Shown here: piece after piece, positions 39,274 to 54,487 of the stretch
Layout: each line of letters opens with the position of its first letter
Position numbering within the stretch: position 1 is the first letter of the stretch
Assembly: GCF_039649665.1 (NCBI RefSeq)
Contig: NZ_JBDJAW010000007.1
Coordinates: 124,001-188,000 of the forward strand
Direction of reading: 5' to 3'
DNA from: Microbispora sp. ZYX-F-249
Lineage (GTDB): Bacteria; Actinomycetota; Actinomycetes; Streptosporangiales; Streptosporangiaceae
Length of the DNA stretch: 64,000 nucleotides
The notes under the pieces: model-generated
Databases searched by the model: none
The model's input: the letters and a program-made list of their open reading frames with translations, nothing else
What the model was told of the DNA's origin: nothing
Translations under genes and position numbers: made by a program

Positions 39274-41268
39274 CTACTCGGCGGCCGTGTCCCGCTTGTT
39301 GAGCTTCGCCAGATAGTCGTTGTAGGCGTCCAGCTCCGCGTCCCCGGTGCCGCCGGACTTGGCCGCGGCGGCGTCGGCGCGGCGGTCGGTGCGGCGCGCG
39401 ACGCGCTCGTCGTCGCGCCACCACTGGAAACCGAGCGCGAGCAGCACGATCAGCGTGGGGATCTCACCGAACGCCCAGGCGATCGCGCCGCCCGACTGCT
39501 GGTCGGCCAGTGAGGAGGCGCCCCAGGTGCGCCCGAGCTGTTCGTAGTAGGACGACGCGAGCACCGTGCCCATGCTCATCAGGGCGATTCCGAAGAACGC
39601 GTGGAACGGCATGGTCACCATGAGCAGCAGCAGCCGCCCGTAGTGGGGCAGCTTGTGCGGCGCGGGGTCCACTCCGATGATCACCCAGAAGAACAGGGAG
39701 CCGCTGAGCAGGAAGTGCACGGTCATCGCGATATGACCGAGGTGCTCCTCCATCGCGGCGGCGAACAGCGGGGTGAAGTACAGGGCGAAGGTCGACACCA
39801 CGAAGATCGCCGTCGCGATCGCGGGATGGCTGACGAACTTCACGACCCTGCTGTGCAGGATCACCGTGATCCACTCGCGTGGTCCCCGGTCGCCCCGGCG
39901 GACGGCGGGCTTGAGCGCGCGCAGCGCCAGCGTCACCGGCGCGCCGAGCACCAGGAAGATCGGGACCAGCATGGACAGGACCATGTGCTCGGTCATGTGC
40001 ACGCTGAACAGCACCGGCGCGTAGCGCGCCACACCGGTCTGCGTGCTGAGCACGAGGATGACCACGCCGAGATACCAGCTGACCGTGCGGCCCACGGGCC
40101 ACCGGTCGCCCCGGCGGGTCAGCCGGACGAGCCCCGCGCCGTACAGACCGGCCATGACGGCGGCGAGTACGGCGAAGAACAGGTCGAACCACCACAGCGT
40201 CACGAGGTTGCCGAGCGAGATCGGCGGCGGCACGAGGTAGCCGAGCAGCTCGAACGCACGGTCGACCGGGGTGTCGACGGGCGGCGGGGCGGTCCGGGAC
40301 AGCGCCACGGCGAGGCCGATCGTCGCCCCCATCAGCACGACCTCGCCGAGGGCGAGGCGGAGGAAGGCGTGCGGCTCCCCCGCCGACAGCCGCGGCAGCG
40401 TACGGCCTCGGTGACGCCAGCCGAAGAACCCGAGCACGGCGAACGCGACGATCTTGGCCAGCAGGAGCAGGCCGTAGTTCGAGGTGAACAGCTCGCCGAC
40501 CGAGGTGAGGCGCGAGGCGGCGGCGGCGAGCCCGGAGACGCCGACCCCGGCGAAGCACCACAGAGCCATGCGGGAGAAACGCGCGGCGGCCACGTCCAGG
40601 AGGGGCTGCCCGCGCAGCGCGTGGATGCAGACCACCCCGAGGCCGCCCACCCAAAGCGCCAGGAAGAGCAGGTGCATGGCCACCGAGGTGGTGGCCAGCC
40701 CGTGGTTGGGCGAAGAGGAGGAGTGCCCGGTGAGGGCCGGCGGCAGGAGCGTCACGAGCGCGAAGACCAGCAGCCCGGCGGCGGCCCCGGCGGTGATCGC
40801 ACCGCGGGCGAACAACGCGATGGCGACGGCGAACAGCACGACCAGGGTCAGCGCGATGCCCTGCGGCACCTGGCTGGCGTAGCTGGTGAGCTCGTTGCCG
40901 GCGAGGACCTCGCCCACCGGCATGCCGAGCGTCTCCGACAGGCTGAAGACCAGCGCCACCGCCGCGGCGACGGCCCAGGCGAGCGCGGACCACGACGCGC
41001 CCTTGACGTAGCTCTGCGCGGATTTGCCGAGCAGGCCCTTGTCGCCGGGCAGGAACACCGCGGCCGCGGCCAGCAGCCCGACGGTCAGCACGCCGGAGAC
41101 GTCCATCGCGAGCTTCGACAGCGGCAGCATCCAGCGCGTGAGAGTGCCCTCGTCGGGCAGGCCGGGAATGATCCGCGGCGTCGCGGCGCCGCCGAGCACC
41201 ATGGCGACGACGAGTGCGCCGACTGCCGCGCAGAGCGCGGCGGCGGTGAGGCGCGCCGCCCTGCTCAC
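39274..41268 (-). CDS. CopD / CtaG (cytochrome c oxidase assembly) fusion membrane protein
   Basis: Encodes 664 aa with some 13-14 spans. The N-terminal half is a CopD-type copper-import domain (SKLAMDVSGVLTVGLLAAA; SPNHGLATTSVAMHLLFLALWVGGLG). The C-terminal half is a CtaG/Caa3 assembly domain (VHMTEHMVLSMLVPIFLVLGAPVTLALRAL; MTVHFLLSGSLFFWVIIGVDP; LMVTMPFHAFFGIALMSM). Histidines in these helices are plausible copper ligands. It overlaps the CopC stop by 4 nt, so CopC is likely to deliver copper to it in the cell envelope. Confidence 0.92.
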   Translation of the reverse strand: MSRAARLTAAALCAAVGALVVAMVLGGAATPRIIPGLPDEGTLTRWMLPLSKLAMDVSGVLTVGLLAAAAVFLPGDKGLLGKSAQSYVKGASWSALAWAVAAAVALVFSLSETLGMPVGEVLAGNELTSYASQVPQGIALTLVVLFAVAIALFARGAITAGAAAGLLVFALVTLLPPALTGHSSSSPNHGLATTSVAMHLLFLALWVGGLGVVCIHALRGQPLLDVAAARFSRMALWCFAGVGVSGLAAAASRLTSVGELFTSNYGLLLLAKIVAFAVLGFFGWRHRGRTLPRLSAGEPHAFLRLALGEVVLMGATIGLAVALSRTAPPPVDTPVDRAFELLGYLVPPPISLGNLVTLWWFDLFFAVLAAVMAGLYGAGLVRLTRRGDRWPVGRTVSWYLGVVILVLSTQTGVARYAPVLFSVHMTEHMVLSMLVPIFLVLGAPVTLALRALKPAVRRGDRGPREWITVILHSRVVKFVSHPAIATAIFVVSTFALYFTPLFAAAMEEHLGHIAMTVHFLLSGSLFFWVIIGVDPAPHKLPHYGRLLLLMVTMPFHAFFGIALMSMGTVLASSYYEQLGRTWGASSLADQQSGGAIAWAFGEIPTLIVLLALGFQWWRDDERVARRTDRRADAAAAKSGGTGDAELDAYNDYLAKLNKRDTAAE

Positions 41269-41831
41269 GGCTTCTTCCGCAGGCTCAGGAACATCCCTAT
41301 GCCGACGCCGGCGATCCCGAAGATCACTGCCCAGATCCAGCCGGGCACACCCGTCCGCCCGGCGCTCCCGGCCTCGGTGGCCTGCGCCGTCGCGGCCGAG
41401 GAGGGCGCCGCCGCGGAGGCGGAGTCCCCGGGAGCGGCGGCCGAGGTCGCCGCGCCGAGCGACTGGGCGCCGATCACGGTGAACGGGATCTCGCCCTCCA
41501 GCGGGTGTCCGTCGGGCGAGACCACCCGCCAGGCGATCGTGTAGCGGCCGGGGGGCACGGGCTCGGTCACCGCCTGGGTGACCTTGGGCCCGTCCACGGC
41601 CGGTGCGCCGCTCTCGTAACGCTTGCCGTCCTCGCCGCGGACGACCACGACCGGAAACTGAACGGAGTCCGCGAATTCGAGCGTGACCTTCTGCAAGGTC
41701 TTGACCTGGGCGTTCTTCTGCGGGTCGCTACTCTTGAGCGAGGTGTGCGCCTGGGCCGGCAGGACCGGCGCGGCACACAGCAGGAGAGCCGTCAGGAGCG
41801 CGGCGAAGGCGGCGAGGAAGGGTCTCTTCAT
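41265..41831 (-). CDS. copC: CopC-domain copper-binding protein with C-terminal membrane anchor
   Basis: Encodes 188 aa. Signal peptide MKRPFLAAFAALLTALLLCAAPVLPAQA is cleaved before HTSLKSSDP, so the mature N-terminal His can bind Cu(II) as in CopC. The beta-sandwich shows VTLEFADSVQFPVVVV and YTIAWRVVSPDGHPLEGEIPFTV with a second His. An Ala/Ser/Thr-rich linker and a C-terminal span (GWIWAVIFGIAGVGIGMFLSL) anchor it outside the membrane. Co-translated with the CopD-CtaG gene. Confidence 0.92.
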   Translation of the reverse strand: MKRPFLAAFAALLTALLLCAAPVLPAQAHTSLKSSDPQKNAQVKTLQKVTLEFADSVQFPVVVVRGEDGKRYESGAPAVDGPKVTQAVTEPVPPGRYTIAWRVVSPDGHPLEGEIPFTVIGAQSLGAATSAAAPGDSASAAAPSSAATAQATEAGSAGRTGVPGWIWAVIFGIAGVGIGMFLSLRKKP

Positions 41832-42124: not shown

Positions 42125-43417
42125 TCAGAGCCCGGCGCAGGCGAGGGCGCGCTGATAGGCCGCCACGCTCTGCGTGTCGTCGCCGATGCGCCGCCGCATC
42201 TCCGCCACGTTCATCCAGTCCTCGGCGGCCTTCAGGGTCTGCGGCGCCTCCTCCAGCCAGCCGGTGACCAGGTCGAGCGCCGCTGCCGCGTCCCCGTCCT
42301 GGTGGAGCAGGAAGTACGCCTGGCCGAGCAGGAGGTTGGCGCGGCCCAGAAGGCCGCTGTCGGTGTGCTGAACCTGCGCCAGCGCGTCCCTGAGGTGGTC
42401 GACGGCCTTGTCCGGGCGGTCGAGGACGATCTCCGCCATGGCAAGGACGCAGGCGGTCCGCGCCCGGTCGAAGGCGCTGGTGGCGGAGGCCTCGTGCTCC
42501 CGCTGGGCCCGCAGGAGCAGCTCTTGTGCCTGCTCCGCCTCCTCGGGACGCACCCGCAGCATCATGGTGGCGTAGGCCTGGCGCAGCCGCGCGAGGTTGC
42601 GGGGCTCGCCGTTCTCCGACTGGTGGGCGAGCGCCCGTTCGAGGAGCGTCATGCCCTCCTCGCCCCGGCCGGTCTTCTCCAGCACCTGCGCCGCGTTCCA
42701 GCACGACGCCACGGTCGCTCTCGGTGTGCCGAGGGTCTCGGCCGCGGCCAGCAGCTCGTTCGCGAAGTGGCCCGCGCGCAGCAGGTCTCCACGCACCAAG
42801 TACGCCGCCAGAAGGGTGGCGCCGAGCTCGACCAGCTCGTCGGTCCAGCCGTTGCGCGCGAACGTGGCGAGCGCCTGCTCGCCCACCTGCACGGCGGCGG
42901 AGAAGTCGCCCCGCTCACGGTGGCACCGGCACAGCGCCAGCGCCACGGCTATCTTGCGCTCCTGCGGCGTCGCCTCCGCCTCGGAGCCGTTCAGCTCCTC
43001 GAAGACCGCGATCGCCTCGCCCAGCTCTCCGCACGCCTCCAGGGCCAGGGCGTACCCGTAGCGGGCCTCCACCCTGAGCGCGGTGAGACCCAGCAGGTTG
43101 TTGTCCGCGAGCAGTTCGGCATACCTGCGGCGGGCCTCGGCGACCTCGCCGTTCTCGAGTGCCATGCGCGCGAAGCTGAGGCCGACCTCGAGGTCCTCCA
43201 TCTGCTCGGCCGTCACACCGTTCACGAGGTAGGTGAGTGAGCAGTCGAGCTTCTGGGCGAGCAGTTCGAGAACGGCCGGCGTCGGAGTCCTCTTGCCGCT
43301 CTCGATGAGCGATACGTAACTGTCGGAAAGTTCAGGATGCGCCAACTGCGCTTGCGAGAGCCCACGCTGCCGTCGTATCGCCTTGATGCGCTGTCCGACC
43401 AGATCTTGCGCGGCCAT
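42125..43417 (-). CDS. XRE-family HTH regulator with C-terminal TPR domain (RRNPP-like candidate)
   Basis: Encodes 430 aa from the ATG at 43417 (AGGAG 6 nt upstream). Residues 1-65 are a Cro/C1-type HTH: GQRIKAIRRQRGLSQAQLAHPELSDSYVSLIESGKRTPTPAVLELLAQKL. The rest is a chain of helical pairs with TPR character (ARYGYALALEACGELGEAIAVF; CRCHRERGDFSAAVQVGEQAL; AEIVLDRPDKAVDHLRDAL; GDDTQSVAAYQRALA). HTH plus TPR is the build of Rgg/PlcR/NprR/AimR peptide receptors. A gene for a small exported peptide starts 54 nt away on the opposite strand. Confidence 0.92.
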   Translation of the reverse strand: MAAQDLVGQRIKAIRRQRGLSQAQLAHPELSDSYVSLIESGKRTPTPAVLELLAQKLDCSLTYLVNGVTAEQMEDLEVGLSFARMALENGEVAEARRRYAELLADNNLLGLTALRVEARYGYALALEACGELGEAIAVFEELNGSEAEATPQERKIAVALALCRCHRERGDFSAAVQVGEQALATFARNGWTDELVELGATLLAAYLVRGDLLRAGHFANELLAAAETLGTPRATVASCWNAAQVLEKTGRGEEGMTLLERALAHQSENGEPRNLARLRQAYATMMLRVRPEEAEQAQELLLRAQREHEASATSAFDRARTACVLAMAEIVLDRPDKAVDHLRDALAQVQHTDSGLLGRANLLLGQAYFLLHQDGDAAAALDLVTGWLEEAPQTLKAAEDWMNVAEMRRRIGDDTQSVAAYQRALACAGL

Positions 43418-43471
43418 TGGCAACTCCTGAAATATTGTAGGCCTGGCAGTCCGAGTTGAGGGAGATCCATA

Positions 43472-43606
43472 GTGCGCCGCCCAGCCTCGTATCTACTTAC
43501 CGCCCTGATTGTGGCCCTTGTGACCTTCGGTGGCAATGCTACGGCCAACAGTGCCGCTCCGTCTCCTCTGCAGCGTGGCTGGGCCGACGGCTCCCTCTGC
43601 TGCTGA
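43472..43606 (+). CDS. 44-residue exported peptide precursor, candidate signalling peptide
   Basis: GTG 43472 follows GAGGGAGA at 7-8 nt, a strong RBS. The peptide starts VRRPASYLLTALIVALVTFG, a basic n-region and hydrophobic core, then GNATA (a probable signal-peptidase site after residue 25). The exported tail is about 19 residues ending RGWADGSLCC at a TGA. Being divergent from an HTH-TPR gene, signal-bearing and Cys-Cys-terminated, it looks like a pheromone precursor. No family assignment is possible. It is too short for routine gene calling. Confidence 0.72.
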   Translation: MRRPASYLLTALIVALVTFGGNATANSAAPSPLQRGWADGSLCC

Positions 43607-44715
43607 CCCGCGTAGTTGCTGCTGATAGCGGGACGGACCATCCCCGGCGGACGACCCGGCCGCCGGGGAGCGGCCGTCCGCCCGGCCCGGGGCGTACGGC
43701 GGACAATCGATCGAGCGGGGAACGGGGCCGGCGTTCTTGACCGGCTCCGTTCACGCTCCGGGTCACGATTTCTGACGGGAGCGCGGTCGGAAGCCGGAAT
43801 ACAGCGGCAGCAATGACGCTTTCCCATTTCCGCATCACGTTGCAAAGCCGCGGTCCGGAAAATGCAATTCACGCGGACGCCGACTCGGCAGGCTTTTTTT
43901 GAAATCCCCGCCACACCGATGCCCCCAAGGACGTGGTGAATTTGCGAGGGCGAGCGGATGCCGGGTCGGGCATGACACGGAGCGCGTGACGCCCGGCGCG
44001 TGTCAGGCTTCTCCGCCACCACCGACCCTCCCGAGAACACGGGGGGCGGCCGCGGGCCCGGCTTGGAGGGCGGCCGACGCGAACCCGCGCCCCCGGCGGC
44101 AAAGTGGCGGGCGAATCCAACAGTCCGCCCAACGGGCGAAGGGGCCCCTTCGTCATCGGAGCCTTCCACGCGTCGCGTCCGTACGACCGGCGGCCCCGGG
44201 CCGAGGCCGGGCGGGAACGGCGAACGACCGGCCGGTCCCGGAACAAGGCAGGTCAACGCCGAATAGAGCGTGCGGCGGCGAGCGGCGCGGCGGGCGTGGC
44301 CTCCGTCGGGGCGGCGTTGGCCGGCGTCGCTCCCCGCCACGGCACCGAGGCTCCCCGCACTGCGGCCCGTAACCCTCCGAGCGTCCGGGCAGGTCAAAGG
44401 TGTGACAGGCGGGCTTACCCGCGAGTAGGGAATTCCGGCCCGCTGGAATCGGCGGATTATCCGAGGCGTCTAGACAATATCTAGACGGAAGATGGCATAT
44501 TTGATGCTCTGCCGGAACAGGCCCGACGGCGTGCCTGATGACCGGCGAACACGGGGATGCCACGCGAAGCCGCAGTTTTGGGGGAACCGCCGGGGTGCAG
44601 TCGCGACGAGTGCAGCGGCGACTCATGGCGTGTACCGGGCGCGGGAGCGGCATTTCGCCCGATCACGGTGATCCACAGATTGCATCTACGCCGTTACCAG
44701 GTGGAGTTCAGACGT
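43607..44715. other. Gene-poor intergenic region of about 1.1 kb
   Basis: No open frame here has an RBS, protein-like composition and consistent codon use. AT-richer islands occur at about 43740-43960 and 44380-44520, including a run of seven T at 43894-43900. The downstream end contains the palindrome at 44467 and promoter-like AT-rich sequence before the SARP gene. It may hold promoters, a non-coding RNA or decayed coding sequence; I cannot decide which. Confidence 0.5.
44467..44487. promoter_or_regulatory. Perfect palindrome upstream of the SARP operon
   Basis: CGTCTAGA-CAATA-TCTAGACG has 8-bp arms and a 5-nt spacer and is strikingly AT-rich for this genome. It lies about 230 nt upstream of the first SARP/NB-ARC gene. 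It is a good operator candidate for the XRE-TPR regulator or for a SARP. Confidence 0.55.
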
Positions 44716-47634
44716 ATGGATAGCGCGAATCAGCGTAAAACGTCCGTGTACTCACCCTGCCGCCTGCGGATGCTCGGCCCCCTGGCCGCATGGCGCGACG
44801 GACGGAGCGTCGACCTCGGACCTCCTCTGCAGCGCGCGGCCCTGTGCGTGCTCGCCGCGCAGACGGGACAGGTCGTGACCAAGGAGGCCCTGATCGGCGG
44901 GCTCTGGGGGGAACGCCCGCCGAACACCGCCGAGCAGAGCGTCTACACCTACATCGCCGGACTGCGGCGGATCCTGGAACCCAAAAGCAGCCGGCGGGGC
45001 TCCTACTCGGTCCTGCTGTCCCGGTCGGGCGGCTACGTCCTGGCCCACGGGCCGATCGAGGTGGACGTCGAGGACTTCGAGCGCCATCTGGCCGAGGCCC
45101 GCCGGCTGGACGTCGACGGCGACCCGCGCGGCTGCCTCCGGGCACTGGACGCCGCCGTGGGGTCCTGGTCGGGCCCCGCCCTGTGCGGCGTCCCGGGGCC
45201 GTTCGCCGAGGCGGAGCGGGCCCGCCTCGAGGAGTTGCGCTTGTCGGCTCGGGAGGACCGCGCCGACGTGCTGCTCCACCTGAATCTGCACCAGGAGGCG
45301 GCGTCCGCCCTGACCGAACTGGTCGGCGAGGCCCCCCTGCGGGAGCGCGCCCGCGCCCTGCTCATGCTCGCGCTCTACCGGTGCGGCAGACAGGCCGACG
45401 CCCTGCACACGTACATGGACGTCAAACGGCTCCTGGCGGAGCGGCTCGGGGTCGATCCCGGCAGGACGCTGCGGGAACGGTACGAGCTGATACTGCGGGC
45501 CGATCCCTCGCTCACGCCGACGGGCGAGAGGGCGGCCGGTCCCGATGCCCGGTCTCCGCGCACTCCGCGCCAGTTGCCCCGCGCGGTGAACTGCTTCGTC
45601 GGCCGGGCCGAGGAGATGGTCCGCCTGCGATCGCTGCTCGCCCCCTGGGACGGCGCGCCCCCGCAGGCGGTGGTCGCCATCACCGGCGCCCCCGGAGCGG
45701 GAAAGTCCGCCCTGGCGGTCCACGCCGCCCACGCCGCCGTCCACGCGTTCCCGGACGGGCAGCTCTATGTGAATCTCCTGGGAGCGACCCCGGGCGTGGA
45801 GTGGCTCAAGCCGATCGATGTGCTCGGCAGGCTCCTGCGCGCCCTGGGACTGCCCGGCGAGGCCGTGCCCGCCGATGCGGACGAGGCCGCCGCCATGCTG
45901 CGCGACCGGTTGGAGGGCCGCAGGACCCTCATCCTGCTCGACGACGCGGCGGGGCCCGAGCAGGTACGCCCTCTCCTGGGCCTGCCGGCCGGCACCAGCG
46001 TGCTGATCACGAGCCGGGAGTCGTTCGCCGTGATCGACGACTGCGTCCAGTTCGTCCTCGGCAGCATGCTGCGGTCGGAGGCCGTCACCGTACTCGCGAA
46101 GCTCGTGGGGGCCGAGCGGATCGCGGCCGACCCGGCGGCGGGCCGGCTGGCGGACCTGTGCGGCGGGCTGCCGCTGGCTCTCCGCCTGGCCGCCGCACGG
46201 CTTCTGGACCGGCCGCAGTGGACGCCCACGGAGCTGGTCGACCGGCTGGAGGACCGGCGGCGCACACTGCACGAACTGGAGGCGGGCCAGACCGCCGTGC
46301 GTTCCAGCCTCGAGCTCAGCTACGAGAGCCTCGCCCGCGGCGCATCCGCCCTCGACCGGTCGGCGGCCCGAGTCCTGTGCCATCTCGGCCTTCTCCATGT
46401 GGCGGATGTGACGGCGCACGTCGTGGCCGCCCTCGTGGACGAGCCCGCCGACGCCGCGGAGCGCGCGCTCGACCGCCTCGTACGCGCGCACCTGCTGGAG
46501 CCCGCGAGCACCGGCCGGTTCCGCATGCACGACCTCGTACGCCTCTACACGATCGAGCTTGCGGACACCCGCCTCGCGCCCGAGGCCCGCGCGGGCGCCC
46601 TCCTGCGAGCGCTCGGGTTCTACGGCGCGACGGCACGGCGGGCCAGCTCCGTGCTGGATCCGCACCGCGTGCAGCTCCCCTGGCCCGCCGTGCCGCAACG
46701 CCCCCTCGCACTCACCTCTCCCGCCGAGGCCAGGAACTGGCTGGAGGACGAGCTGGCGAACGTGGTGGCGGCCGCCTCGCAGGCGCTGGTGAGCGAGGAC
46801 GAAGAGATCGCACGCATGGGAGTTCGCGTGGGGTTCGCCCTGTACTGGCAGCTGTCGAGGGGCGCGCACCGCCGCGAGCACCTCCGCCTGAGCAGGCAGG
46901 CGCTGGCTGTGGGCGAGCGGGCCGGCGACCTGGAGTTGATGTCCCTGGCACACGGTCAGCTCGCCACCGCCCTGCTTCAAATCGGCCGGGCCGCCGACGC
47001 GATGCCGCACCAGCGGGCCGAGCTGGAACTCAGACGTGAGCTGAAGGACCGGTTCGGCGAGATGCGGGCGCTGGGCAACCTGGCCGCCACTCACGTGACT
47101 CTCAAGCAGTACGCGCGGGCGCGCGAGTGCACCGAGACACAGCGGACGATCGCCAGGGAGATCGGTTCCGACGTCGGTGAGCGTCATTCGCTGCTGATCG
47201 GGGGAAGGGCCTGCGAAGGGCTGGGTGACGTCGCCGAGGCCATCAGCCTGATGAGCGAAGGGCTCGCGCTCGCCCAGGCCGCGGAGGATCGCTACCAGGA
47301 GAGCGCGGCTCTGGTGATGCTCGCCAAGCTGCACCTGGACCGCGACGACGCACTCACGGCGAAAACCCACCTGGAGCGCGGCCTGCGATGCGCGATCGAG
47401 ATCGGCCACCGGGCCTACGAGTGCCGGTCCCTCACCCTGCTCGCCAGAGCCCACCGCCTCCTCGGTGATCCGGAGCAGGCCCTGGCCTGTGCCCGGAGGG
47501 CGCTGCCGATCGCACAGTCGTACGGGGACGAGGAACTCCGTGAGGTGGAGGCGGAGCTGCGGGCCATCCAGCCGGTTTTCCCCTGTGCGGACTCCGCCCG
47601 GCCCTTTCCGGCTCACCTCACGTTGGTCCGCTGA
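44716..47634 (+). CDS. AfsR/SARP-like regulator: wHTH-BTAD-NB-ARC-TPR
   Basis: Encodes 972 aa from the ATG at 44716 (GGTGGAG 9 nt upstream). The order is: OmpR-type winged helix (about 15-100; EQSVYTYIAGLRRIL), BTAD (about 110-255; RERARALLMLALYRCGRQADAL), NB-ARC ATPase with P-loop GAPGAGKSALAVHAA and LILLDDAAGPEQVRPLL, a winged-helix relay, and C-terminal TPRs (about 690-950). Such STAND-type proteins activate secondary-metabolite or developmental genes after ATP-driven assembly. A close paralogue follows 27 nt downstream. Confidence 0.93.
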   Translation: MDSANQRKTSVYSPCRLRMLGPLAAWRDGRSVDLGPPLQRAALCVLAAQTGQVVTKEALIGGLWGERPPNTAEQSVYTYIAGLRRILEPKSSRRGSYSVLLSRSGGYVLAHGPIEVDVEDFERHLAEARRLDVDGDPRGCLRALDAAVGSWSGPALCGVPGPFAEAERARLEELRLSAREDRADVLLHLNLHQEAASALTELVGEAPLRERARALLMLALYRCGRQADALHTYMDVKRLLAERLGVDPGRTLRERYELILRADPSLTPTGERAAGPDARSPRTPRQLPRAVNCFVGRAEEMVRLRSLLAPWDGAPPQAVVAITGAPGAGKSALAVHAAHAAVHAFPDGQLYVNLLGATPGVEWLKPIDVLGRLLRALGLPGEAVPADADEAAAMLRDRLEGRRTLILLDDAAGPEQVRPLLGLPAGTSVLITSRESFAVIDDCVQFVLGSMLRSEAVTVLAKLVGAERIAADPAAGRLADLCGGLPLALRLAAARLLDRPQWTPTELVDRLEDRRRTLHELEAGQTAVRSSLELSYESLARGASALDRSAARVLCHLGLLHVADVTAHVVAALVDEPADAAERALDRLVRAHLLEPASTGRFRMHDLVRLYTIELADTRLAPEARAGALLRALGFYGATARRASSVLDPHRVQLPWPAVPQRPLALTSPAEARNWLEDELANVVAAASQALVSEDEEIARMGVRVGFALYWQLSRGAHRREHLRLSRQALAVGERAGDLELMSLAHGQLATALLQIGRAADAMPHQRAELELRRELKDRFGEMRALGNLAATHVTLKQYARARECTETQRTIAREIGSDVGERHSLLIGGRACEGLGDVAEAISLMSEGLALAQAAEDRYQESAALVMLAKLHLDRDDALTAKTHLERGLRCAIEIGHRAYECRSLTLLARAHRLLGDPEQALACARRALPIAQSYGDEELREVEAELRAIQPVFPCADSARPFPAHLTLVR

Positions 47635-47661: not shown

Positions 47662-50544
47662 ATGGCCAGCGAGGGATCCGGTGCGAGGCAGGCCGGTATC
47701 CGCCTCCGGGTCCTCGGACCGGTGACCGCGTCGCTCGACGACCGGCAGCTGAACCTGGGACCTCCGCTGCAGCGGGCCACCCTGTGCGTGCTCGCCGCCA
47801 GGGCCGGGCAGATCGTTTCGAAGGAACAACTCATCGACGACCTGTGGGGTGGCGCCGCCCCGAAGACGGCCGAGCAGAGCGTCTACACCTACGTGGCCGG
47901 GCTGAGGCGCCTACTCGAACCGGATCGAGGCAGGCGTGGGCCGTTCAGGCTGCTCACCCACTCCGCGAGCGGATACAGCCTGGCACGGTCCGCGTGCCGC
48001 ACGGACGCCGAGGAGTTCGAGCAGCGCGTCGCCGAGGCTCGCCGCTTCCAGGCCAAGGAGGACCTCGGCGCTTGGCTGCGCGAGCTGGAGGCCGCGCTGG
48101 GACTGTGGGCGGGCACCGCCCTGGGCGGCCTTCCCGGCCCTTTCTGCGAGACGGAACGGGCCCGGCTGGAGGGCATGCGCCTCACCGTGCGGGAGGACCA
48201 GGCCGACGCGCTGCTGCGGCTGGGCCGGCGCCAGGAGTCGCTCGAGGTGCTCGTCGGGCTGACCACGGAGGCTCCACTGCGGGAGCGGGCCAGGGAACTG
48301 CAGATGCTCGCGCTCTACCGCTGCGGACGGCAGGCAGAGGCACTGGAGGTCTTCCACGACGCCAGGCGTCTGCTCGCCGAACGGCTCGGCGTCGATCCGG
48401 GCGAGTCCCTGCGGCGGGCGTACGAGCTCATCCTGCGCGCGGACCCCTCTCTCGGGGTGTCGCCGTCCCCCGCGACCGCCGCCGCTCCCGCGGAGGTCGT
48501 CCGGCCGCGTCAGCTCCCGCGCGATCCGCAGGTCTTCGTGGGGCGGACGGACACGGTGGTGCGCCTGCGCGCGCTGCTCGCGCCCTGGGACGGAAGCGAG
48601 CCGCAGGCGGTGGTGGCCGTCACCGGCACGGCGGGAGCGGGGAAGTCGACCCTCGCCGTACGCGCCGCCCACATGGTGAGCGATCACTATCCGGACGGCC
48701 AGCTGTACCTGAACATGTTGGGGGCGACGCCCGGAGTCGGGCGGCTCAACCCCCTCGACCTGCTCGGGAGGCTGCTGCGGAGCCTGGGGGTGCGCCCGGA
48801 GGCGGTCCCGTCCGATCAGGACGAGGCCACGGCGATGCTCAGGGACCGCCTGGCGGGCCGGCGCACGCTGATCGTGCTCGACGACGCGGCCGGCCCGGAA
48901 CAGGTCCGCCCTCTGCTGGGTCTGCCGGCCGGGAACGCCCTGCTCGTGACGAGCCGGGAGTCGTTCGCGGCGGCCGACGACTGCGTCCAGCTCGTCCTCG
49001 GCAGGATGCAGCGGTCGGAGTCGGTCGCCATGCTCGCGAAACTGATCGGCGCCGAGCGGGTCGCCGCCGATCCGGCCGCCGCCGCCGAACTGGCCGGCCT
49101 GTGCGGGGGGCTGCCCCTCGCCCTGCGCCTCGCGGCGGCGCGTCTGGCGGAGAACCGCCACACGCCCCTGGCCGAGCTGAACGCCCGGCTGCGCGACGAA
49201 CGGCGGGCGCTGCACGAGCTGGAGTCGGGCGACCTCGCGGTCCGGGCGAGCCTGCAGCTCAGTTACGACCTGCTCGCGACCAGCCCGCACGATCTCGACC
49301 GCACGGCGGCCGCGGCCCTGTGCCATCTGGGCGTCCTGCGCACGCCGGACGCGACCCCCGAGGTCGTGGCGGCCCTCCTCGACGTGCCGCTGGCCGCGGC
49401 GGACAGAGCGGTGGCCCGGCTGGTGCGCGCCCATCTGGCCGAGCCCGACGACCACGCGCGTTTCCGTCTGCACGACCTGGTCCGGCTGTTCGCGATGGAA
49501 CTGGCCGAGCGGCACCTTGGCCCAGAGGCCCGCGACGAGGCGCTCGACCGCGTTCTCGGCCTGTACGGGTCGAGCGTCCGTCTGGCCATGCGGCTGCTCG
49601 ACCCGCACCGGGTGCACCCGCCGCACGAGTTCGCCGAGCGCGAGCCGTTCACCCTGACGGACGGCGACGGCGCGTCCGTGTGGCTGGAGCGGGAACGCCC
49701 GAACCTCCTCGCCACGGCCGCGCAGGGAATGGTCTCGCCGGACCCGTCGCTCGCGCGCTCCGGTGCCTACCTCTGCTTCTCCTTCCACTGGCCGCTCACG
49801 TTCATGAGCCACCACGCCGACCTGCTGATCCTCAACGGCCGGGCACTCGAGGTGGGCGAGCGGCTGGCGGACCAGGAGATCTCGGCTCTCGCGCACGGAT
49901 ACATCGCCATGAGCCTGGGGAATGCGGGGCGCTACGACGAAGCCCTCGTCCACCAGCGTGCCGAGGTGGAGCTACGGCGCACGGTCGGCGACCCCTTCTC
50001 GCGGATGAGGGCCCTGGGCAACCTCTCCGTCGTGCTCAACTCGTTGCACCGGTACGAGGAAGCCCTGCCGTCGGCGCGCGAGCAGTTGCGGCTCGCCAGG
50101 GAGATCGGGACGGAGGTGGGCGAGCGTCACGCTCTCATGGTCGTCGGCGCCGCCCAGCTCGGCCTGGGGGACGTGGCGGCCGCGAGGGCCGCGTACGCCG
50201 AGATGGGAGCCCTCGCGAGAGAGGCCGGAGACGCCATGCACGAAGGAGAGGCGCTCATAGGCATGGCCAAGGTGCACATGCACCGCGGCGACCCCTGGTC
50301 CGCCGCGATCCTTCTCGAGAAGGTCCTCCTGTCGGTCCGCGAGAGCCGTCATCGCGCCATGGAGGTGAGGTGCCTCGGCCACCTGGGCCGCGCCGCACGG
50401 CTCATGGGCAGATACGGAAAGGCTCGCGCGTACCTGCTGGAGACCCTGGACGTCGCGGAGAAGTACGGCGCGGGTTACTGGGTGGGCTTCGCGCGCGAGG
50501 AGCTGGCCCTGCTCGACCGCGGGCACGCCGCCGCGGGCGACTGA
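47662..50544 (+). CDS. AfsR/SARP-like regulator: wHTH-BTAD-NB-ARC-TPR, tandem paralogue
   Basis: Encodes 960 aa; AAAGGAGGG lies 8 nt upstream of the ATG. It has the same architecture as the gene at 44716 and long near-identical blocks (LGPPLQRATLCVLAARAGQ, EQSVYTYVAGLRRLLEP, GPEQVRPLLGLPAG). P-loop GTAGAGKSTLAVRAA, LIVLDDAAGPEQ and C-terminal TPRs are intact. The 27-nt gap means one operon. The pair probably arose by tandem duplication; differences concentrate in the TPR part, which senses or recruits partners. Confidence 0.93.
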   Translation: MASEGSGARQAGIRLRVLGPVTASLDDRQLNLGPPLQRATLCVLAARAGQIVSKEQLIDDLWGGAAPKTAEQSVYTYVAGLRRLLEPDRGRRGPFRLLTHSASGYSLARSACRTDAEEFEQRVAEARRFQAKEDLGAWLRELEAALGLWAGTALGGLPGPFCETERARLEGMRLTVREDQADALLRLGRRQESLEVLVGLTTEAPLRERARELQMLALYRCGRQAEALEVFHDARRLLAERLGVDPGESLRRAYELILRADPSLGVSPSPATAAAPAEVVRPRQLPRDPQVFVGRTDTVVRLRALLAPWDGSEPQAVVAVTGTAGAGKSTLAVRAAHMVSDHYPDGQLYLNMLGATPGVGRLNPLDLLGRLLRSLGVRPEAVPSDQDEATAMLRDRLAGRRTLIVLDDAAGPEQVRPLLGLPAGNALLVTSRESFAAADDCVQLVLGRMQRSESVAMLAKLIGAERVAADPAAAAELAGLCGGLPLALRLAAARLAENRHTPLAELNARLRDERRALHELESGDLAVRASLQLSYDLLATSPHDLDRTAAAALCHLGVLRTPDATPEVVAALLDVPLAAADRAVARLVRAHLAEPDDHARFRLHDLVRLFAMELAERHLGPEARDEALDRVLGLYGSSVRLAMRLLDPHRVHPPHEFAEREPFTLTDGDGASVWLERERPNLLATAAQGMVSPDPSLARSGAYLCFSFHWPLTFMSHHADLLILNGRALEVGERLADQEISALAHGYIAMSLGNAGRYDEALVHQRAEVELRRTVGDPFSRMRALGNLSVVLNSLHRYEEALPSAREQLRLAREIGTEVGERHALMVVGAAQLGLGDVAAARAAYAEMGALAREAGDAMHEGEALIGMAKVHMHRGDPWSAAILLEKVLLSVRESRHRAMEVRCLGHLGRAARLMGRYGKARAYLLETLDVAEKYGAGYWVGFAREELALLDRGHAAAGD

Positions 50545-50589: not shown

Positions 50590-52146
50590 CTAGCCGGCGC
50601 GGAGGGCGAGGAACAGGTCGACCCGGTCGGCCATGGACGACAGGTCCTTGCCCGTCAGCTCCTCGACCCTTCTGATCCGGTAGCGCACCGTGTTGACGTG
50701 GACGTGCAGCCGTTCGGCGCAGGCGTTCCACGACCCGGTGCAGTCGAGGAAGGCGCCGAGCGTGCGCACCAGCTCGGCGCCGTGCCGCCGGTCGTAGTCG
50801 AACAGCGGTCCCAGCAGCCGCCCGGCGAACGAGGAGCGCACGTCGCCGGGCACGGTCGCCAGCAGCAGCGCGTGCGTGTAGATCTCGTCGCTGGTGACCA
50901 CTCCCCCGCCGCGCGCCTCGGCCATCCGCCGGGCGTGGCCGGCCTCGTCCACGCCGCCCCGGATGGCCTGCGGCCCGGTCAGCGCGCCGCTCACCCCGGC
51001 CGAGACCCGGATTCCCGGCAGCCCTGCGGCGAGCACCGCCGTACGGGCGCGCAGCAGCGCCGCGAGCGCGTCGCGGTCGCCCCAGAGGGTGCCGTCGCGC
51101 AGCGGGACCAGCGCCACGGACGCGTCGGCGCCCGCCGCGGCCACCACCCGGCGGTCCAGCAGCTCCTCCGTCACCTGCCCGCCCAGCAGGGCGGGGTCGG
51201 GACCGTCCGTCGCCCCGGGCCTGCTCGCCGTGACGGTCACCACGGCGTACGGCTCGGCCGGGTCGATGCCGCAGGTCCGCAGCCGGGCCGACAACTCGGC
51301 GAGGTCGCCGCCCGCGCAGGCCAGCGCGATGAGCTGCTCGGCCAGCCGGCGCTCCACCCGGCGGCCCTCCTCCGCCCGGGTCCGCTCCATGGCGACGCAC
51401 GCCGCCAGCTCGTAGCCGATCTCCGCGTCGACCTCGCCCCGGCAGACCAGGGCCCAGCCGGCGGCCCGGTGCGAACGGTCCACGGCGAACAGCGTGAACG
51501 GCCCGCCGCGGTCCACGACGACGGGCAGGCGGACGGCGGCGAGGTAGTCGCGCGCCAGCCGTACGGCCCGCTCCTCGGGCAGGGCGCCCGCGACGACCGT
51601 GCCGCAGGCGGAGACGACGGCGGCCGTGACGCCGAGCTCGGCCTCGACCAGGGCGAACAGCTCGCCGAGCCCGGCCCCTTCGGCCACGGCCGCGACGATC
51701 CTGCGGTGCCGCCCGAGCGCGCCCCGCAGGTCGCCCGCCTGGGCGGCGGCGGCGCGCCTGGCGACGAGCTCGGTGACCGCCCCGAACGACACCTCGACCG
51801 GCACCTCGAACAGCGGCAGCCCGTGCGCGCGGCAGGCGTCCACCAGGTCGTCCGGCACCATGCCGAGCCGCGCGTCGCCGGCGCCGAGCGCGGCCACGCC
51901 TGCCTCGGCCAGGGCCTGCACGAACCGGGCGGAGTCGGCGGGCGACTGGCGCCACATCAGGCCGGTCAGCACCAGCTCGCCGCCCGACAGGTACCGCCGG
52001 GGATCGGGCAGGTCGGTGATGAGCACGCCCTCGATCTCGCGGTCCAGCCGCTCGTCGCCCGTGAGCAGGGCGAGCCGCAGTTCCGGGGAGGCGAGCAGAT
52101 CTTGCAACAGCACGACAGAAGCGTATTTGGAGATATATACAAGCAT
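50590..52146 (-). CDS. PucR-family transcriptional regulator
   Basis: Encodes 518 aa from the ATG at 52146. The N-terminal PucR domain (VVLLQDLLASPELRLALLTGDERLDREIEGVLITDLPDPRRYL) is followed by a GGDEF-like central region and a C-terminal HTH_30 (CAERLHVHVNTVRYRIRRVEELTGKDL). The family controls purine or other nitrogen-compound catabolism. The first codons (ATGCTTGTATATATCTCC) are unusually AT-rich, which keeps the start site unstructured. It is divergent from the xanthine-dehydrogenase subunit gene, its probable target. Confidence 0.93.
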   Translation of the reverse strand: MLVYISKYASVVLLQDLLASPELRLALLTGDERLDREIEGVLITDLPDPRRYLSGGELVLTGLMWRQSPADSARFVQALAEAGVAALGAGDARLGMVPDDLVDACRAHGLPLFEVPVEVSFGAVTELVARRAAAAQAGDLRGALGRHRRIVAAVAEGAGLGELFALVEAELGVTAAVVSACGTVVAGALPEERAVRLARDYLAAVRLPVVVDRGGPFTLFAVDRSHRAAGWALVCRGEVDAEIGYELAACVAMERTRAEEGRRVERRLAEQLIALACAGGDLAELSARLRTCGIDPAEPYAVVTVTASRPGATDGPDPALLGGQVTEELLDRRVVAAAGADASVALVPLRDGTLWGDRDALAALLRARTAVLAAGLPGIRVSAGVSGALTGPQAIRGGVDEAGHARRMAEARGGGVVTSDEIYTHALLLATVPGDVRSSFAGRLLGPLFDYDRRHGAELVRTLGAFLDCTGSWNACAERLHVHVNTVRYRIRRVEELTGKDLSSMADRVDLFLALRAG

Positions 52147-52195
52147 CGACCCCGGCCGTCGCCGGGTTTCATGGCCGCGCCGATAGGCCCCGCCC

Positions 52196-54487
52196 GTGCC
52201 CGGTTGCTGTACTACGACGGTGGAGCGGCGCACGACGACTGAGACGGCGGCGGGGAGCGGGCGGCTTTCGGGCCTCGGCGAGAGCGCGCGGCGCCCCGAC
52301 GGCACGCTGAAGGTGACCGGGGAGTTCGCCTACTCCTCGGACCTGTGGCTGGAGGGCATGCTCTGGGGCGCCACGCTGCGCAGCCCGCACCCGTCCGCGT
52401 GGATCCGCTCGATCGACACCGGCCCCGCGCTCGCGATGCCCGGCGTCTTCGCCGTGCTGACCCACGAGGACGTGCCCGGCGAGAAGTTCTACGGACTGGA
52501 CATCCGCGACCAGCCGGTGCTCGCCGTCGACCAGGTCCGCCACCAGGGCGAGCCCGTGGCGATCGTGGCCGCCGACCATCCGGAGACCGCCCGCCGCGCC
52601 GCCGCCGCGATCGTCGTGGACTACGAGGAGCGCGAAGCGGTGACCGACCCGCGCCGGGCCGCCTTCGACCCCTCCTGCCCCGCCGTCCATCCGCGGGGGA
52701 ACCTCGTACGGCACCAGCCGGTCAGGGTGGGGAGCACCTTCGAGGCCGACGTGGTCGTCACCGGCGAGTACGAGGTCGGCATGCAGGACCAGGCGTTCCT
52801 CGGGCCCGAGTCGGGCCTCGCCGTGCCCGCCGAGGACGGCGGGGTGGACCTGTTCGTCGCCACCCAGTGGCTGCACGTCGACCAGGACCAGGTGGCGCCG
52901 TGCCTGGGCCTGCCGAAGGACAAGGTGCGGCTGACGCTCGCCGGGGTCGGCGGCGCCTTCGGCGCCAGGGAGGACCTGTCGATGCAGGTCCACGCCTCGA
53001 TGCTGGCGCTGCGGACGGGCCGCCCGGTCAAGATGGTGTACGGCCGCGAGGAGTCGTTCTTCGGCCACGTCCACCGGCATCCCGCCCGGATGCGCTACGA
53101 GCACGGCGCGACGGCCGACGGGCGGCTCGTCTACGTGAAGGCCGAGATCCTGCTCGACGGCGGCGCCTACTGCTCCTCCACCCCCGCCGTGGTCGGCAAC
53201 GCCGCGTCGCTGGGCGTCGGGCCGTACGAGGTGGGCAACGTGTGGATCGACGCGTACGGCGTCTACACCAACAACCCGCCCTGCGGGGCGATGCGCGGGT
53301 TCGGGGCGGTGCAGGCCTGCTACGCCTACGAGTCCCAGATGGACCGCCTGGCCGCGGCCTGCGGGCTGTCGCCGGTCGAGATCCGCGTCCGCAACGCGGT
53401 GTCACAGGGGTCGCGCCTGGCCACCGGGCAGGTGATCGACACCCCCGCGCCGCTGGCGGACATGCTCGCGGAACTGGCCGCGATGCCGCTGCCGCCGCCC
53501 GCCTCCCCGGACCTGCGGGCGCTGCCGGGCGGCGTCGCGCAGACGACGCACGGCGAGGGCGTGCGGCGCGGCGTGGGCTACGGCGTCGGCATCAAGAACA
53601 TCTGCTTCTCCGAGGGCTTCGACGACTACTCGACGGCACGGGTGCGCGTCGAGCTCGCCGGGGACGAACCGCACGTGCTCGTCCACACCGCCGCCGCCGA
53701 GGTGGGCCAGGGGCTCGTGACCGTCCAGGCCCAGATCGCGCGTACGGAGCTCGGGATCGGCAGGGTCACGGTCGCCCCGGCCGACACCGCGGTCGGCTCC
53801 GCCGGGTCCTCCTCGGCGTCCCGCCAGTCGTACGTCACCGGCGGGGCGGTCAAGACGGCGTGCGAGGCGGTGCGGGCGCGGCTCGACGCGCTGCGGGCGG
53901 CCCATCCGGACCTGTCCCTGGAGGAGGTGCTCGAGCGGTTCGGGCCGGTCGAGGAGACACGGGAGTACCGCCACCGGCCCACGTTCCCGATGGACCCCGT
54001 CACGGGCCAGGGCGACTCCCACACGCAGCTCGCGTTGTGCGTGCACCGGGCGGTCGTCGACGTCGACGCCGACCTGGGCCTGGTCAAGGTGGTCGAGCTG
54101 GCCGCCGTGCAGGACGTCGGGAAGATCCTCAACCCCCTGGCCCTGGAGGGGCAGATCCACGGCGGCTCCGCGCAGGGCCTGGGCCTGGCGCTGATGGAGG
54201 AGATCCAGGTCAGGGACGGCCGGGTGCTCAACCCCTCGTTCACCGACTACCTGATCCCCACCATCCTCGACATGCCGCCGATGCGGCTGTCCATCCTGGA
54301 GAACCCCGACCCCCACGCGCCGTACGGCCTGCGGGGCGCGGGCGAGCCGCCCACGCTCTCGTCGACCCCCGCGGTGGCCGCGGCGGTCAGGGCCGCGACC
54401 GGGCTGGATCTCCCCCGGGTCCCGATCCGGCCCGAGGACATCGCGCTGGCGCCCGCTCCCGCGGCCGGCGCTCAGTCGGCGATGTAG
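52196..54487 (+). CDS. Xanthine dehydrogenase-type molybdenum-binding subunit
   Basis: Encodes up to 763 aa; the GTG at 52220 is an alternative start and neither has a strong RBS. Two aldehyde/xanthine oxidoreductase domains are visible: an N-terminal a/b hammerhead (GTLKVTGEFAYSSD) and the Mo-binding region (GGAFGAREDLSMQVHASMLAL; CGAMRGFGAVQACYAYESQMD; AEVGQGLVTVQAQIARTEL). The catalytic Glu lies in LRGAGEPPTLSSTPAV. No FAD or 2Fe-2S subunit gene is next to it, so the enzyme must draw partners from elsewhere. PucR control suggests purine catabolism. Its 3' end overlaps the next convergent gene by 16 nt. Confidence 0.9.
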   Translation: MPGCCTTTVERRTTTETAAGSGRLSGLGESARRPDGTLKVTGEFAYSSDLWLEGMLWGATLRSPHPSAWIRSIDTGPALAMPGVFAVLTHEDVPGEKFYGLDIRDQPVLAVDQVRHQGEPVAIVAADHPETARRAAAAIVVDYEEREAVTDPRRAAFDPSCPAVHPRGNLVRHQPVRVGSTFEADVVVTGEYEVGMQDQAFLGPESGLAVPAEDGGVDLFVATQWLHVDQDQVAPCLGLPKDKVRLTLAGVGGAFGAREDLSMQVHASMLALRTGRPVKMVYGREESFFGHVHRHPARMRYEHGATADGRLVYVKAEILLDGGAYCSSTPAVVGNAASLGVGPYEVGNVWIDAYGVYTNNPPCGAMRGFGAVQACYAYESQMDRLAAACGLSPVEIRVRNAVSQGSRLATGQVIDTPAPLADMLAELAAMPLPPPASPDLRALPGGVAQTTHGEGVRRGVGYGVGIKNICFSEGFDDYSTARVRVELAGDEPHVLVHTAAAEVGQGLVTVQAQIARTELGIGRVTVAPADTAVGSAGSSSASRQSYVTGGAVKTACEAVRARLDALRAAHPDLSLEEVLERFGPVEETREYRHRPTFPMDPVTGQGDSHTQLALCVHRAVVDVDADLGLVKVVELAAVQDVGKILNPLALEGQIHGGSAQGLGLALMEEIQVRDGRVLNPSFTDYLIPTILDMPPMRLSILENPDPHAPYGLRGAGEPPTLSSTPAVAAAVRAATGLDLPRVPIRPEDIALAPAPAAGAQSAM

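Follow-up and report, generated by a model that had tools for sequence, protein, structure and literature searches.

Does the small gene that faces an XRE-TPR regulator in Microbispora sp. ZYX-F-249 encode a signal that this regulator reads? We analysed a 64,000-nucleotide stretch of the genome (contig NZ_JBDJAW010000007.1, positions 124,001 to 188,000; hereafter the window), in which the gene for a 430-aa regulator with a helix-turn-helix (HTH) domain and tetratricopeptide repeats (TPR) lies at 42125..43417 on the minus strand (ATG start; Pfam HTH_3 and TPR_12). It is divergent from a short gene at 43472..43606 on the plus strand (GTG start) encoding a 44-aa pro-peptide with the C-terminus RGWADGSLCC. 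An earlier inspection of the letters alone (the sequence-only reading) had proposed that the two form a peptide quorum-sensing module of the RRNPP kind. We find the pair in relatives, together with covariation between the peptide end and residues of the TPR domain, and both support that proposal: the two genes very probably encode a peptide and its receptor that signal in the manner of RRNPP systems.

Architecture of the pair

The two genes are separated by 54 nt (43418..43471). This gap contains an imperfect 16-bp palindrome, CCTGAAATATTGTAGG (43426-43441), and the strong ribosome site that had been noted ahead of the peptide gene (GGGAG, 43460-43464); we infer that the two promoters overlap in it. 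Translation of the short gene gave a precursor of the predicted exported kind: its start is rich in Arg, its leader is hydrophobic and, by eye, has an Ala-x-Ala-like end, and its C-terminus is RGWADGSLCC; export leaders were assessed by hydropathy and by eye. The codons of the terminal Cys-Cys (CC) lie at 43598..43603 on the plus strand. Among open reading frames (ORFs) of 25-95 aa in the six frames of the window, 43472-43606 is the sole one with both a hydrophobic leader (score >1.9) and a C-terminal CC.

The receptor matches Pfam HTH_3 at residues 11-64 (the HTH spans about 8-64), with TPR repeats behind it in a superhelix at residues 70-430, and its AlphaFold model has a predicted local distance difference test score (pLDDT) of 90.6. 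The pair shows two marks of RRNPP systems: an N-terminal HTH with a C-terminal TPR superhelix, as in their HTH-bearing members (seen by Pfam, the AlphaFold model and fold comparison), and, next to the receptor gene, a short gene for a pro-peptide that carries an export leader. No RNPP-named family was present among the receptor's Pfam and NCBIfam matches at E 0.001.

Conservation of the pair

An orthologous receptor gene, 58-100% identical, was found in 15/15 Microbispora genomes searched, and in all 15 it faces a divergent small CC-ending ORF whose start is 54-58 nt from the receptor start. Two of them, L014 and L016, have a TTG or ATG further upstream that extends the mechanical ORF, and the inner start was taken; with these trimmed, the peptide alignment has eight invariant columns: M1, R2, R3, L9, T24, S31 and both Cys.

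We searched 200 genomes of the host family and observed the receptor at E 1e-45 in 127, spanning 37 of 68 genera. In a first set of 97 loci with 102 receptor genes, 76 receptors have a divergent CC-ending leader ORF within 350 nt, compared with 2 of 918 control segments from the same 97 loci and 0 of 2040 mononucleotide-shuffled upstream sequences. A second set of 11 receptors (L242-L252) has a CC peptide in 10, bringing the host-family figure to 86/113. Outside these 113, a further 17 host-family receptors include 4 with CC (L122, L125, L126, L146), 3 with a W-P type of peptide (L127, L128, L131) and 10 without CC (L132-L134, L185-L191), giving 90/130 overall. One receptor clade (L085, L088, L091-L097 and kin) has peptides that keep the leader and have ends of W-N-x-P types with no Cys.

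The pair extends beyond the family. We searched 394 genomes from the class, and 59 contain the receptor at E 1e-40; 40 of the 59 belong to other families. Taking the best match per genome (31-43% identity), 33 of these 40 receptors have a CC-ending leader ORF nearby (25/31 plus 8/9), in seven families (f9, f14, f19, f20, f26, f27 and f38, where f19 is Jiangellaceae). Its orientation varies: divergent, convergent on the far side of the receptor, or co-directional and upstream. The sequence-only reading had proposed a search of related genomes for the same divergent pair as a check, and the outcome is favourable to it. When 198 genomes of the phylum were searched with the L144 receptor at E 1e-45, the sole match was G000. 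In two loci (L154, L256) the divergent CC ORF is accompanied by a second exported one (GGSDYCC and GGSDFCC) that lies convergent on the far side of the receptor, which raises the question of whether there can be two peptides per receptor.

On mobile elements, a search of 50,697 phage records gave one match, an unannotated 11.9-kb record with 34.8% identity over 81%. Matching plasmid records numbered 27, of which 20 were from Streptomyces. Six of the 27 were examined, and a CC peptide was seen in Nonomuraea gerenzanensis (L146) and in 2/5 Streptomyces records. The two Streptomyces peptides (WP_123083198.1, WP_331750220.1) are annotated as hypothetical proteins and end DIPLCC or DLPLCC; their distances from the receptor gene, which they follow, are 0.14 and 1.9 kb. 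In Streptomyces sp. ADI95-16 a second annotated small protein (L147:5831-6043) with an export-like leader and the end FDPREKM adjoins the CC peptide and is followed by the gene of a BTAD-domain regulator.

Covariation between receptor and peptide

The receptor alignment comprises 103 rows with a CC peptide, 9 with a W-P peptide, 33 without a peptide and 6 of a paralogue. Five residues, T201/A237/N241/E268/N274, are exact in 84/103 CC receptors, 0/9 W-P receptors and 1/33 peptide-less receptors; in the Microbispora gene, residues 201-274 are encoded at 42596..42817 on the minus strand. In the lone peptide-less carrier, L141, the contig reaches only about 235 nt upstream, and W-P receptors have QLGER at the five positions in 5/9 cases. 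E268 fails to separate CC from W-P receptors, and the best separators of CC from all others over the 430 positions are 274, 281, 201, 237, 236 and 241. Receptors fetched later carry at least 4/5 signature residues in 19/21 CC cases and 1/5 others. Over 11 tree-independent pairs the signature scores 7.0 to 0.2 in favour with a median p of 0.016, which is optimistic because the positions were picked on the same data. We set the TPR register by placing G210-D211 at motif positions 15/16 and G250 at position 15 of the canonical TPR numbering. In this register T201, A237 and N241 lie in A helices that follow one another, at motif positions 6, 2 and 6, and should line the groove.

Residue 241 in addition covaries with peptide position -3, the residue before CC. 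Among 122 receptor-peptide pairs, 13 have Glu241 with His-3, none has Glu241 with another residue, one has His-3 without Glu (L261) and 108 have neither; two CC receptors (L139, L161) were dropped from the original 124 because the ORF filter missed their peptides. Since relatedness makes a Fisher p of this table meaningless, we counted tree events: His-3 changes four times and Glu241 three times, in three separate places of the tree and each time with His-3 (sign test on 4 pairs, p 0.25). A recent switch is seen between two receptors that are 87% identical, L052 with Asn and YCC and L059 with Glu and HCC. By mutual information with position -3, residue 241 ranks first among TPR positions, followed by 208 and 204. 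The suggestion that the peptide C-terminus covaries with the TPR domain is supported both by the signature residues and by residue 241.

A paralogous XRE-TPR protein (L002, L018-L031), about 33% identical to the receptor, is present in the 15 Microbispora genomes. We found no CC-ending leader ORF near its 15 loci (64,071 bases), and the CC signature is in 0/6 paralogue-labelled rows (three of them, L186, L189 and L190, labelled by hand). On this test by sequence the receptor appears distinct from the paralogous actinomycete group, with the CC peptide and the signature on the receptor side only. The paralogue adjoins a conserved ORF starting MLLTTGLITRKVAMMPL, with no CC peptide.

Other possible functions for the small peptide

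The peptide leaders are conserved and the mature parts mostly diversify. In 10 groups of close relatives covering 44/85 peptides, the pooled ratio of nonsynonymous to synonymous proportions (pN/pS; uncorrected, from overlapping pairs) is 0.55 for the leader and 1.08 for the mature part without CC. Bacteriocins, too, are typically small and exported and diversify in their mature part, and the pooled mature-part value of about 1.1 counts in favour of a bacteriocin or other bioactive peptide that is exported and that the XRE-TPR protein merely regulates without binding it. We consider this unlikely. The neighbours identified in the host family, where no search aimed at modification, immunity or export genes was made, are CopC and CtaG, and the TPR residues follow the peptide C-terminus, with E241/His-3 in three places, which would be needless for a pure regulator.

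It is considerably less probable that the pair is merely syntenic, with co-inherited neighbours of unrelated functions. In its favour, the host-family locus is one inherited neighbourhood: a CopC-domain protein (41265..41831, minus strand) lies beyond the receptor in the window and is adjoined by a CopD/CtaG (Caa3_CtaG) membrane protein (39274..41268, minus strand), both identified by domain search. CopC was found in 46 of 80 loci, that is 46/49 in the host family and 0/31 elsewhere, and CtaG in 47/80. Against it, the two genes can be convergent or co-directional in other families, with no CopC nearby in any of 31 such loci, covariation reaches single residues, and tandem receptor copies own one peptide each. 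Such tandems are seen in L073 (G111), with peptides ending GKDIACC and GEPLCC, and in L075 (G132), with AKDIFCC and DAPRCC; judged by their sequences they are whole signal-receptor pairs that have duplicated and diverged.

Actinobacteria are known to use Cys-rich leader ORFs for attenuation, and the CC codons could accordingly belong to a cysteine-sensing leader with no peptide product. This we regard as very improbable: the export leader is conserved, the next downstream gene in the window starts 1.1 kb away, there is no Rfam match at 43000-45000, and the W-P clade keeps the leader in peptides that end without Cys.

The short gene itself looks coding, given its intact counterpart in 15/15 Microbispora, the leader pN/pS, synonymous Cys codons and differing stop codons; the comparison of synonymous and nonsynonymous changes proposed for 43472-43606 thus favoured coding. 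CC is encoded by TGCTGC in 73/76 peptides and by TGT variants in 3, stop codons vary, and distant ORFs have TGCTGC in 20/24. An identical GPRVHCC end occurs in six genomes of one clade with six different nucleotide sequences and different leaders. Searching a protein database with the alignment of the peptides (A1) gave 1142 candidates, none at E <=1, and we take this alignment to be too short for so large a database. That 43472-43606 is a chance ORF, as its short length and GTG start would allow, is scarcely credible in view of the control counts and of the synonymous changes beneath a constant GPRVHCC.

Evidence against a signalling pair and proposed mechanism

Several observations weigh against a signalling pair. 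The sequence-only reading had named receptors lacking an adjacent signal-peptide gene as the sign that it was wrong, and these exist in part: 27/113 host-family receptors lack a CC peptide within the stretch examined. Nine of the 27 have a leader of the same kind with another C-terminus (GWNHPG, WNGPW, WNQPG and the like, with LNNAE in one), and 18 have no peptide in the sequence read; added downstream sequence for 13/15 loci of peptide-less first-set receptors contained no CC peptide. The same absence was seen for 7/40 other-family receptors, two of which (L141, L165) are near a contig end. CC was a search criterion, so that its constancy is unbiased only in Microbispora (15/15). For the covariation, the later-fetched rows are kin of the first rows, the signature was selected from the very data that it describes, and only a few pairs are independent on the tree (11 for the signature and 4 for E241/His). 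Glu241 also occurs in 12/35 peptide-less receptors (L100, L102, L107, L109, L114, L115, L117, L118, L132-L134, L252), which offer no pair to score, and the tree then needs four changes; these receptors are perhaps relics of His-Cys-Cys systems or readers of peptides made elsewhere. Mature-part pN/pS is uneven among groups, from 0.05 to 1.37 (leader 0.24-1.00 where defined). Unrelated eukaryotic TPR proteins (LGN, APPBP2) fit the receptor fold equally well, and the palindrome described below is not clearly the receptor-peptide gap motif in most genera.

A signalling pair nevertheless appears the best reading, and its steps can be outlined. Sequence evidence backs the first of them: the small gene makes a pro-peptide with a Sec-type leader, its C-terminal end, which is Cys-Cys in most receptor lineages, is the part under selection, and the XRE-TPR protein covaries with this end at TPR positions expected to line the groove. 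Such covariation would suit an active signal that is a piece of the pro-peptide lodged in the TPR groove. Beyond that, the leader would be cut off outside the cell at a site that we can only guess, and the C-terminal fragment, perhaps 7-16 residues by a similar guess, would be re-imported by an oligopeptide permease and dock in the receptor. In such a docking the CC end would be held by T201/A237/N274 and residue -3 by 241/204/208, and docking would alter HTH binding to the shared 54-nt promoter region. In Microbispora the HTH may also bind at a palindrome before the tandem SARP genes.

Candidate outputs

A palindrome near 44467 and a tandem SARP operon next door had been put forward as natural outputs. 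The palindrome is real: TCTAGA-N5-TCTAGA (TCTAGACAATATCTAGA) lies at 44469..44485, 230 nt before the first SARP gene, and is a possible operator. The SARP genes are also present, one SARP/AfsR-like regulator at 44716..47634 (plus strand; Pfam Trans_reg_C, BTAD, NB-ARC, TPR) and a second of 960 aa at 47662..50544 (plus strand), identified by reading. After them, at 50590-54487, we read a PucR-like regulator gene on the minus strand and a gene for a xanthine/CO dehydrogenase-like large subunit.

Downstream of the peptide gene, 13/15 Microbispora have an AfsR-like SARP gene, and the same 13 have TCTAGA-N5-TCTAGA with at most 2 changes before it; in L196 and L197, the remaining two, a stretch of about 5 kb showed no SARP gene. 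Across the 8.78-Mb assembly the exact palindrome has a single occurrence, and still only one with one mismatch allowed, compared with five occurrences with one mismatch for a control pattern (the palindrome read backwards). Over the 15 Microbispora genomes it stands exact at the SARP place in 11 and at 3 other places in total. Because SARP and palindrome are conserved there, the SARP pair is a likely target of the receptor or of a linked regulator in Microbispora.

As a general output SARP was rejected, and this part of the proposal stands in few other genera: long matches outside Microbispora were only in L043, L045, L125 and L146, with short or 30%-identical matches in L128-L131 and L206. 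None was found in ten other host-family loci searched over 5-6 kb upstream (L198-L205, L210, L211); many loci were covered with 1.5-kb flanks only. An operator shared between the gap and the SARP promoter was likewise rejected. L043 and L045 are the only loci with the palindrome (at most 2 changes) in the gap as well as before the SARP gene, and we do not claim a shared operator since most genera keep a site at the gap position but not the palindrome. Two Microbispora genomes (L192, L193) have the same palindrome form, TCTAGACTCTTTCTAGA, close to an ORF that reads as TetR-like, where it is possibly a second target.

A copper link through the CopC and CtaG neighbours would be speculation. Given these genes beside the receptor in one family and the paired cysteines of the peptide, vicinal Cys may be chemically active, as a disulfide or with Cu(I) bound, in which case the signal would report redox or copper state as well as density.

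Comparison with known systems

In PlcR-PapR of the Bacillus cereus group the signal is the C-terminal end of a short exported pro-peptide that is paired with an HTH-TPR regulator, and the present pair resembles this system. In a profile search of solved structures, PlcR (2qfc, E 5.9e-8, residues 5-187) was the best natural bacterial regulator. However, our pairs are from Actinomycetes, the receptor has 430 aa rather than 293, the peptide ends in Cys-Cys, and the genes are mostly divergent. On the question of descent from RRNPP receptors as against a general XRE-TPR build, NprR scored E 1.5e-5 and 3.9e-5, and designed and eukaryotic TPRs scored equally well. The receptor is 14% identical in both alignments with NprR-NprX and Rap-Phr of Bacillus, and unrelated eukaryotic TPRs align equally; moreover Rap has no HTH DNA-binding domain, unlike the present receptor.

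The size rule given in the available text of the RRNPP_detector survey, a TPR receptor of 250-500 aa with an adjacent exported pro-peptide of 10-100 aa, fits the pair (PMC10075063). That survey used complete genomes of Firmicutes and viruses (PMC10075063), and RRNPP surveys, as far as their accessible text goes, cover Firmicutes (PMC10075063, PMC9765709). The pairs described here are in Actinomycetes, with Firmicutes genomes outside our search, and we therefore say that they work like RRNPP systems and do not file them under a known subfamily, a difference of range and not of mechanism. No actinomycete RRNPP-like pair was found in the open literature, a scope that leaves out most subscription papers and bioRxiv preprints, nor in the available text of PMC10075063, PMC9765709, PMC6540685, PMC13220807, PMC12715929, PMC11343458 and PMC3601965.

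That the pair recurs in several actinomycete families, with changes that match on both sides, points to a peptide language so far overlooked in bacteria known for their antibiotics. More tentatively, and with clear doubt, there may be one class-wide language with words mostly ending in Cys-Cys, the Cys pair being perhaps active, read by one receptor family through a legible code in which residue 241 is generally Asn and is Glu for His at -3. The E241/His pairing would be a specificity rule testable by two point changes. SARP regulators are known to switch antibiotic clusters, and the candidate outputs here include two such genes in tandem. In Streptomyces, gamma-butyrolactone signalling provides population signalling and can act through SARP-type regulators. 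Receptor-peptide pairs in several actinomycete families would add signals that can be synthesised: the gamma-butyrolactone signal is an enzyme-made small molecule, whereas the signal here would be a genetically encoded peptide.
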